Assembly (NCBI GenBank): GCA_021793215.1
Contig: JAJYTE010000027.1
Span: 1-35,745 of the forward strand
DNA length: 35,745 nt
Origin: Bacillota bacterium
Lineage (GTDB): Bacteria; Bacillota; Sulfobacillia; JAJZYS01; JAJYTV01
Direction of reading: 5' to 3'
How positions within the stretch are numbered: position 1 is the first letter of the stretch; each line of letters opens with the position of its first letter. Under the pieces are notes generated by a model. It did no database searches. It worked only from the letters and a program-made list of their open reading frames with translations, and had not been told where the DNA came from. The translations under genes were made by a program, and so were the position numbers. Positions 1 through 16,615 of the stretch are shown piece by piece.

Positions 1-141
1 AGGCGACGATTCCTTACCTTCTGGTTGGCCGAGAAGATCGTCGTACAGGACAACGGCACTGTGACGATAGCCTTCCGAACCTCGAAGGAAGGACGTGAAG
101 CAGGATATAAACTGAAGTCCCCACTAAGACGGGGACCTTGA
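1..141 (+). CDS. C-terminal tail of a probable serine recombinase (partial, continues left of window)
   Basis: The first forward frame is open from base 1 to a TGA at 139-141 (46 residues). It reads as a hydrophobic/charged segment (FLTFWLAEKIVVQDNG) followed by TVTIAF and a basic tail. The pattern 'aromatic-leu-x-x-lys-ile-val-val-x-asp-asn-gly-x-(beta strand)' resembles the extreme C-terminus of large serine recombinases/integrases of Bacillota mobile elements. By hand count the first 120 bases are about 52% GC, against about 72% for 181-300, so this is compositionally foreign to its neighbours. The last codons of the frame run through host ATPase sequence (from about 126), which would happen if an integrase gene sits at the very end of an integrated element. 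The catalytic domain lies outside the window, so the family call rests on a short tail and is tentative. Confidence 0.45.
   Translation, partial: RRRFLTFWLAEKIVVQDNGTVTIAFRTSKEGREAGYKLKSPLRRGP
117..136. other. Putative element/chromosome junction (att-like site)
   Basis: The ATPase frame can be read from AAG at 126 (Lys-Thr-Gly-Thr-Leu-Thr). The codon before it is ACT rather than the obligatory Asp codon, and an in-frame TAA lies at 108-110, so homology to the ATPase stops sharply at about 123-126. The junction lies inside an inverted repeat: GTCCCC at 117-122 and GGGGAC at 131-136, separated by 8 bases. Recombination sites of serine integrases commonly have such dyads around a short crossover core. 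The crossover would be near 123-130. This is inference from one end only. Confidence 0.35.
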
Positions 142-1820
142 CGCGAAACGAGATGACGGTTCGGCGCCTGCTCACCCCCGATGGCGAGTACCTTTTGACG
201 GGCGACGGCTACGACGGGGCGGGACGCGTGCTGTCGGCATCCGGCGCGAAGGCGGACCAGGTGGACGTGCGCGAGGCGCTCGGCGCCCTCGCACTCTGCC
301 AGAACGCCCGCGTGCAGCGCCACCAAAAGCGCGTCGCCGTAGAGGGGGATCCGCTCGAGGCAGCCTTGATCGTCGCCGCCCGCAAGGCGGGCCTGGACGT
401 CGATCGGCTCGCGCAACGTAGCCCACGCGTCCTCGAGGTGCCGTTCAGTTCCGAGCTGCAGCGCATGACGGTCGTCGTGCGCGAGGGCCCTTGGCTCAGG
501 CAGATCACCAAGGGCGCGCCTGAAACGGTCCTCGCGCGCTGCTCCCACGAACGTCTGGATGGACGTCCGCAGCCCCTCACGCAGCAGCGGCGGGCCGAGT
601 GGCTGAGGCGCACGGCGGCGCTCGGGCAGGAGAGCCTGCGAGCGATCGCGGTGGCCCAGGCGGAGGTGAAACGCGCCGAGGAGGGGGCGGGACTCTGCCT
701 GCTCGGCATCGCCGGGCTGTTCGACCCACCGCGCGCCGAGGTCCCTGACGCCGTTCGCCGCTGCCGAAGCGCGGGCATCCGCACGCTGATGGTCACGGGC
801 GACCACCCCGACACCGCTGCGTCGATCGCCCGCCAGCTCGGTATCCTGCGAGAGGGCGAGCAGGTCGCCCACGGGCGAGAACTTGAGGAGATGGGTGACG
901 CGGAGCTGGCGCGGCGCGTCCGCGAGACGTCCGTTTTCGCCCGTGTCTCCCCGCAGTTCAAGCTCCGGCTCGTGGACGCGCTGCGCCAAGGCGGCGAGGT
1001 CGTCGCGATGACCGGCGACGGTCTCAACGACGCACCAGCCCTCAAGGCCGCCGACATCGGAGTCGCGATGGGCGTGACGGGTTGTGACGTGACCAAGGAA
1101 GCCGCCGACATGGTCCTCTCCGATGACAACTTCGCCACGATCGTCGCGGCGATCGAGGAAGGCCGCGGCATCTACGACAACATCCGCAAGTTCGTCCGCT
1201 ACCTCCTCACGTGCAACGTCGGCGAAGTGCTTGTGATGTTCCTCTCCGCGCTGATCGGCTCTCCGCTGCCGCTCCTGCCGATCCAGATCCTCTGGGTGAA
1301 CCTGGCGACCGATGGGCTGCCCGCGCTGGCGCTGGGTCTCGAGCCGGTGGAGCGCGACGTGCTCGGTCGCCCCCCGCGCCCGCCGCGCGAAGGCATCTTC
1401 GCGCGGCGCCTCGGCTGGCGAATCACCTCGCGCGGCGCGGTGATCGGTCTCACGACGCTCGGCGTGTTCCTCGCAGCCCGGGCGCTCGGTCGCCCAATGG
1501 TCGAGGCCCGTACGATGACCTTCGCCACCCTCGTCCTCAGTCAGCTCTTCCACGCCTTCGACTGCCGCTCCGAGACGCGCTCGATCTCTGAACTGGGCCT
1601 CACGACGAACCCCTACCTCCTGGCGGCCGTAGCCTCCTCCGTCGGCCTCCTGCTGCTCGCGATCTACCCGCCGTTCGCCCAGGCGATGTTTCAGACCGTG
1701 CCCCTGCACCTTGCGGATTGGCTGGTGATCGTGGCAGTCTCAGGTATGGGATCGTTCGCGATCGCCATTCGCCGTCGGTGGCTCCGGCGGCGCCTCGTGG
1801 CGAAGTCCTTTCGGGGGTAG
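126..1820 (+). pseudogene. C-terminal part of a P2A-type Ca2+-transporting ATPase (YloB-like), 5' half missing
   Basis: The encoded protein begins inside the phosphorylation motif: KTGTLT is present but the phosphorylated Asp is gone. The actuator domain and membrane helices M1-M4 are absent. What follows is intact: the nucleotide-binding KGAPE (510-524), the DPPR-type and VTGDHP motifs, TGDGLNDAP (1011-1037), and a C-terminal membrane block M5-M10. M5 carries NVGE (from 1215) and M6 carries NLATDGLP (from 1299). These are the calcium-ligand signatures of SERCA/YloB-type pumps, so the intact enzyme would export Ca2+. TTG 138 or ATG 153 could start a 560- or 555-residue product, but neither has a Shine-Dalgarno sequence, and a product without the Asp could not cycle. 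In B. subtilis yloB lies at the same place in this cluster. The gene is either a relic or the 3' exon of a gene split by an excisable element. Confidence 0.8.
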
Positions 1821-16492: not shown

Positions 16493-16615
16493 GTGCGGGT
16501 ACATGTCGTCCGGGTGCCGAAGTTCGTCGGGGCGCTGCTTCTCGGCCTGATCTCCCTGTTCGGCGGGCGCGGCGAGCGACACGAGCCGATGCCGACAGAG
16601 AGCGACGAGCCTTGA
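16493..16615 (+). CDS. spoVM: Small spore-coat morphogenetic peptide SpoVM (40 codons)
   Basis: SpoVM is an amphipathic peptide that recognises the positive curvature of the forespore surface and anchors SpoIVA at the start of coat assembly. This 40-residue frame begins MRVHVVRVPKFVGALLLGLI. Against the 26-residue B. subtilis SpoVM it keeps basic residues at 2 and 7, the helix-breaking Pro9, Lys10, Phe11 and Gly13, and a hydrophobic helix after them. Position (after rpe, convergent with rpmB) is the same as in B. subtilis. GTG 16493 has GGGGGTGG at 16479-16486, six bases away. The hydrophilic tail of about 16 residues (from GGRGERHEP on) is additional, and Arg17 of the B. subtilis peptide is Leu here. 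An AT-rich patch at 16466-16476 could be part of a promoter but does not match sigma-E well. Confidence 0.85.
   Translation: MRVHVVRVPKFVGALLLGLISLFGGRGERHEPMPTESDEP

Follow-up and report, generated by a model that had tools for sequence, protein, structure and literature searches.

A Ca2+-ATPase gene split at its catalytic aspartate motif by a putative prophage-like element with a serine integrase frame that runs across attP

The split Ca2+-ATPase gene and the ends of the element

The window, a stretch of 35,745 nucleotides, is contig C21 of the genome under study (G000) read from base 1. Positions 126 to 1820 of its forward strand carry the 3' half of a predicted type IIA Ca2+-ATPase gene, coding for residues 330-893 of the 893-residue rejoined protein and devoid of the catalytic Asp. 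Homology starts at base 126 with the Lys-Thr-Gly-Thr of the DKTGT motif, the codon before it being ACT (Thr) and not GAC (Asp). In the ATPase frame, stop codons at 108-110 and 96-98 of the forward strand lie inside the inserted element, and the one at 108-110 makes the 3' half unreadable from upstream in the window configuration. A sequence-only reading of the same DNA had described the start of homology, the replaced Asp codon and the stop at 108-110, all of which were seen again in the frames of the window. It had also reported a G+C drop before the junction, which exists (52.8% for bases 1-123 vs 69.7% for bases 124-1820) but amounts to 17 points and not to about 20.

The 5' half of the gene, predicted by that reading to end at Ser-Asp, is found in the same assembly on contig C53 (3,341 bases), where it begins at base 1748 (L015:1748-2736) and does end in Ser-Asp. 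The sequence TGCTCCGACAAGACGGGGACC is uninterrupted there (attB) and is followed by 108 bases identical to the window. Past a 10-N scaffold gap, AAGACAGGACACTCAGTTTATATC opens a segment of 489 non-host bases corresponding to the left end of the element. The host parts of C53 and of the window, once joined, code for 893 residues with no stop, and the junction on C53 restores the frame. The split (window) and unsplit (C53) pump gene coexist in one assembly, so that the split looks reversible. The unsplit junction may stem from uninfected cells of the same population or from excision.

The rejoined protein has the Pfam cation-ATPase domains and scores 760 bits with model TIGR01522 (cut-off 798), 697 with TIGR01116 (cut-off 703) and 526 with TIGR01517 (cut-off 507). 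Its closest solved structures are human SPCA1 and Listeria lmo0841, and the split gene is predicted from its sequence to encode a Ca2+-ATPase of type IIA. In the split state the N-terminal half runs, after DKTG, into about 20 foreign residues and the C-terminal half is without the catalytic Asp. The pump therefore cannot function while split. The gene order upstream of the ATPase is unlike that of Bacillus yloB, with an apparent transposase remnant (L015:850-1747) between a MerA-like reductase gene and the ATPase gene. A leader, CTCTTCCCAG...AAGGGGAGAG, precedes the ATPase start (L015:1713-1747); it is conserved there and in eight relatives and could pair with the ribosome-binding site.

Bases 1 to 127 of the window (forward strand) are the right end of the element and the 3' end of a large serine recombinase (LSR) gene in frame 1, with no stop before the crossover. 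Frame 1 reads RRRFLTFWLAEKIVVQDNGTVTIAFRTSKEGREAGYKLKSPLRRGP, a 46-residue tail closed by a host-supplied TGA at 139-141 (forward strand), inside the ATPase sequence. Of the LSR itself the window holds the C-terminal 42 residues, and the tail alone gives no Pfam LSR match. It aligns, however, with residues 484-534 of the complete LSR of a genome of the same genus, G003 (86% identity, E 8e-22), and the terminal 127 bases of the window are identical to the element end of G003 at 121 of 127 positions and to that of G006 at all 127. These matches to the G003 element make the tail, taken by the earlier reading for recombinase-like, an LSR C-terminus and not a chance resemblance.

A complete recombinase gene at the element end, which the same reading had called for, is present in two relatives. 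G003 has a whole LSR adjoining the same junction, a single protein of about 500 residues that combines resolvase, recombinase and zinc-ribbon parts and matches the PHROG 95 integrases over residues 3-516 (E 5e-107); a whole LSR, 60% identical, stands at the same element end in G005. The LSR body of the window's own element copy is absent from the G000 bin. The LSR at the end of contig C84 was rejected as the missing body, being 30% identical to the element LSR, and so were recombinase fragments on C30 and C71. The C84 gene is a third, unrelated LSR gene that runs off its contig (L016:18846-20000); an M23 peptidase gene, SpoIIQ-like as judged by eye, precedes it by about 0.8 kb. IMG/VR, searched with the LSR, an LSR alignment, the extension described below and the right-end DNA pattern, gave no relative; its match to the left-end DNA pattern, a terminase-like gene, was set aside as a chance match.

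The crossover dinucleotide AA of attR is at 126-127 (forward strand), the first two bases of the DKTGT Lys codon. The left arm of attP, GATATAAACTGA, occupies positions 104 to 115 of the same strand and has an inverted copy, TCAGTTTATATC, at the left end of the element on C53. The attP of this family was joined from two element ends and is not one contiguous sequence: rejoining gives TATAAACTGAAGTCCCCACT-AAGAC-AGGACACTCAGTTTATA, in which these two arms form a perfect 12-bp inverted pair. AAGAC is common to all four att sites of G000. The host Lys codon of G006 is AAA and not AAG, and its attL (GAC-AA-GACAGG) differs from its attR (ACT-AA-AACAGG) in a way that leaves AA alone as the exchanged dinucleotide. 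The element thus shows the 2-bp crossover without target duplication and the inverted attP arms of LSR systems, together with two traits of sporulation gene-intervening elements, the split host gene and a frame that precise excision would restore, as it reads at the C53 junction. The junctions, the C53 5' half, the left end and the LSRs of relatives all support the earlier interpretation as an LSR gene-intervening element.

The integrase frame across attP

The same crossover that splits the pump gene splits the integrase gene, a feature that had gone unnoticed. In four genomes (G000, G003, G005 and G006) the LSR frame stays open up to the crossover, and its stop is supplied by host DNA. With the ends in attP order, the LSR frame and no other enters an ORF of 117-123 codons with two helix-turn-helix units, in all five pairings of right and left ends drawn from these four genomes. 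Where the gene is whole, the open frame through attP measures 661-667 codons. The LSR of a different element of G000, inserted in sigK, provides an internal control, with a stop of its own 54 bases before its junction.

Comparison of the extension in G000 and G005 gives 22 synonymous and 6 nonsynonymous changes, and the differences between G000 and copy G003A distribute over codon positions as 7/7/21, concentrated at the third. On these counts the double helix-turn-helix extension is under purifying selection. A terminator-like hairpin with a T-rich tail follows the extension stop in all five copies, so that the extension would be the last part of the unit in the circular form.

We privilege the hypothesis, quite probable as a whole, that a prophage-like element with a large serine integrase would enter the DKTGT codons through conservative recombination over 2 bp (AA), splitting the pump and truncating the integrase, and that excision would reverse both. 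In the integrated form the pump is split at its catalytic Asp, leaving no complete pump, and the integrase frame ends on a host stop, for an LSR some 530 residues long. In the circle released by excision it would continue via attP into the double helix-turn-helix extension, for about 650 residues in all. Integration and excision would in this way switch the integrase between short and long while switching the pump off and on. The long integrase is probably made from the circular form, and a short, catalytically complete one from the integrated form; the two forms probably act differently.

The same architecture is found in SPbeta-like phages. In a tblastn search, phages Goe14, SPR and BUCT082 align with 99% of the fused protein in a single piece, and the extension is present in five free phage records (Goe14, SPR, BUCT082, BUCT083 and SPbetaL2). 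These free phages carry LSR and extension as one CDS of 693 residues. The integrase CDS of Goe14 spans 67-2148 and its annotated attachment site, at 1742-1744, falls within it. Profiles of the extension from the family and from the phages align over 89 columns (hhalign, probability 96, E 4e-9), and this link is by profile only, the extension alone matching no SPbeta-like phage in tblastn. The element resembles the Goe14/SPR/BUCT082 type of Spbetavirus in an LSR gene that crosses the attachment site and ends in a double helix-turn-helix extension, in the palindromic AGTTTATAAACT near the site and in its spore-forming hosts. It differs from that type by an identity of about 22% over the full length, by a site in a Ca2+-ATPase gene, by integrated products that can be read here in four genomes, and by the rest of the element, in which no SPbeta relation was identified. 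Since the architecture occurs in only a subset of Spbetavirus (the five records), it is shared and not defining, and the element is not filed as Spbetavirus. We found no paper on the integrase of Goe14. Phages of this type grow in Bacillus subtilis, and control of recombination direction by the tail is therefore testable in a laboratory strain.

Suicidal SSV-type archaeal integrases also have attP inside the integrase gene, which is divided on integration, an arrangement said to be exclusive to archaea (PMC8371274). Those are tyrosine recombinases with inactive halves, whereas the integrase described here is of the serine type, keeps its catalytic, recombinase and zinc-ribbon parts undivided and loses only the extension. 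In the integration-dependent immunity of mycobacteriophages attP lies inside the repressor gene, whose product is truncated on integration (PMC9262239). The integrase of those phages is encoded by a separate gene and is of the tyrosine type; here the serine integrase itself would be truncated. A bacterial serine integrase gene containing its own attachment site, with the self-truncation that this would entail, is the more unusual feature of the system. Serine integrases are widely used as genome tools, and a length switch occurring in nature would have practical interest. The other novelty is what is hit: among spore-former genes split by recombinase-borne elements, a P-type pump cut at its catalytic aspartate motif would be a new kind of target. 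We found no paper in which a calcium or P-type ATPase gene is the target of LSR insertion.

Spread and nature of the element

The ATPase was searched in 61 genomes, yielding eight scorable family members; G002 and G009 were uninformative, the G002 contig (L030) stopping 20 residues past the motif. The gene is split at the same motif in five of the eight, from two genera (G000, G001, G003, G005 and G006). The relatives with an intact gene that the sequence-only reading proposed for comparison exist: they are the other three (G004, G007 and G008). A DNA search with the joined element ends detected the element in four of ten family genomes. The left end of the G001 element is divergent and its extension is 43% identical. 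Element ends that are near-identical (127/127 and 121/127), against 70-88% identity for the ATPases of their hosts, point to recent horizontal movement.

On the minus strand of C28:1-8000 (L133), G003 carries the ATPase 5' half twice in tandem, at a spacing of about 6 kb and with an element left end after each copy. The first copy has neither LSR nor 3' half; it may be a remnant, or it may serve as an alternative 5' half to the only 3' half, which lies on C2.

In G005, the 14 kb adjoining the LSR on the element side hold 32 tRNA calls (one of uncertain type) and genes for MazG-like, RecE/Cas4-like exonuclease and RNA-ligase-like proteins. Such tRNA arrays are typical of large phages. The element sequence reached has no capsid, portal or terminase genes, so the designation as phage rests on these accessory genes; the element is probably a temperate phage. 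Searched by tblastn, phage records gave no match to the exonuclease of the G005 side, and the only matches to the RNA ligase were in Flavobacterium phages. Among the IMG/VR relatives of this ligase only one LSR was found, unrelated and at a contig end.

Excision, sporulation and competing readings

Prophages SPbeta and phi3T of Bacillus subtilis are similar LSR elements that split a host gene, restored in frame on excision. According to the available text of two reports, SPbeta leaves spsM and phi3T leaves kamA in the mother cell during sporulation; that text describes int and rdf (sprA, sprB) as separate genes flanking attP and makes no mention of a split integrase (PMC8270828, PMC6957869). 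The target gene is different here, and the sporulation-dependent excision known of SPbeta and phi3T is for the present element a proposal. Skin-type elements in sigK and gin in gerE are likewise LSR-borne gene-intervening elements of spore-formers (PMC5595907, PMC5025042), and G000 has one of its own in sigK. The gene is cut there after about codon 71 by a second, unrelated, skin-like LSR element (C22:21507-21771, L191), and at the same site in G008; G001 has a matching 5' piece of sigK close to an LSR. No 3' half of sigK turned up in the G000 assembly. Unlike the pump element, this one has a separate LSR (about 30% identity) that stops within its own element. In G007, whose ATPase is intact, an intact sigK lies near a copy of the element's second left-end gene, of the winged-helix type (C56:2108-4606, L187).

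The G000 host carries sporulation genes, and a GTG-started ORF at 16493-16615 of the window (VRVHVVRVPKFVGALLLGLISLFGG...) is, judged by eye, probably SpoVM. All nine family ATPase genes have the motif TAC-N15-CATAGGCT some 35 bases upstream of the start, with a variable spacer, and the motif block continues into the conserved leader. Both sigma E and sigma K have CATA as their -10 signature. A CATA-type motif is absent before the spoVM-like gene. The genome-wide search for the promoter motif gave 3 hits vs 4 in the control, the motif being too rare for a regulon test, and its result was dropped, one hit also lying too close to the start codon. It is possible, though we propose it tentatively, that excision is set off during sporulation in the mother cell, in which the pump would be expressed. 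We think it rather unlikely that, beyond this, one event toggles both genes, with the helix-turn-helix tail setting the direction or timing of recombination and the mother cell throwing the toggle to supply spore calcium transport. Were this true, the integrase gene would carry part of its own directionality control.

The only part of the favoured explanation opposed by the next reading, which we hold about evenly balanced, is the sporulation step: the element would be a temperate phage or island of an ordinary kind, its insertion inactivating the pump, with no developmental role. The intact junction would then come from excision on induction or by chance, or from never-infected cells. The near-identical ends in hosts with 70-88% identical ATPases indicate recent horizontal spread and not a long-kept developmental element, and three of eight scorable relatives are without the element. 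No directionality factor was recognised and no sporulation promoter was found on the element; the candidate promoter motif before the ATPase gave 3 hits in the genome vs 4 for the control. Against it, the gene is split at identical codons, with both halves still open, in five of eight relatives, SPbeta and phi3T are both excised in sporulation according to the reports cited above, and another LSR element splits sigK in G000.

The reversible prophage-like insertion that we favour also includes the long integrase, for which there is an improbable alternative: the helix-turn-helix ORF would be a separate gene, coding for a regulator or directionality factor, and the open frame through attP a by-product of the overlap of att and coding sequence. 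Most copies do have an in-frame TTG at codon 14, with an ATG at 35 or 46, and Goe14 also has a 'hypothetical protein' annotated from an internal ATG. However, the first 33 extension codons, which precede the first ATG in every copy, differ between G000 and G005 by 9 synonymous and 0 nonsynonymous changes. The LSR without stop inside the element in four genomes and the single 693-residue CDS of the free SPbeta-like phages also argue for one gene.

A dead remnant, unable to excise and with decaying ATPase halves, is very improbable. Remnants do form, as indicated by the extra 5' half with an element left end and no LSR in G003, but none of the halves of the five split ATPase genes has a stop or frameshift, the LSR ORFs of G003 and G005 are intact, and G000 has the intact junction.

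The chance of an assembly or binning chimera, suggested by the window beginning at a contig end and by the 10-N gap in C53, is negligible, since the right junction recurs in G003 and G006 (with a related one in G005) and the left one in G003, G005 and G006 (with a divergent one in G001), which excludes the junction artefact that the sequence-only reading had allowed for. The contig start is itself accounted for. G000 and G006 belong to different genera. Their right ends share 127 identical bases before diverging at base 128 (G vs A), and both contigs start exactly 127 bases before the divergence point, as explained by a de Bruijn graph with k = 127 in which one element end forks into two hosts. 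G000 and G006 probably derive from one metagenome, with recent transfer of the element.
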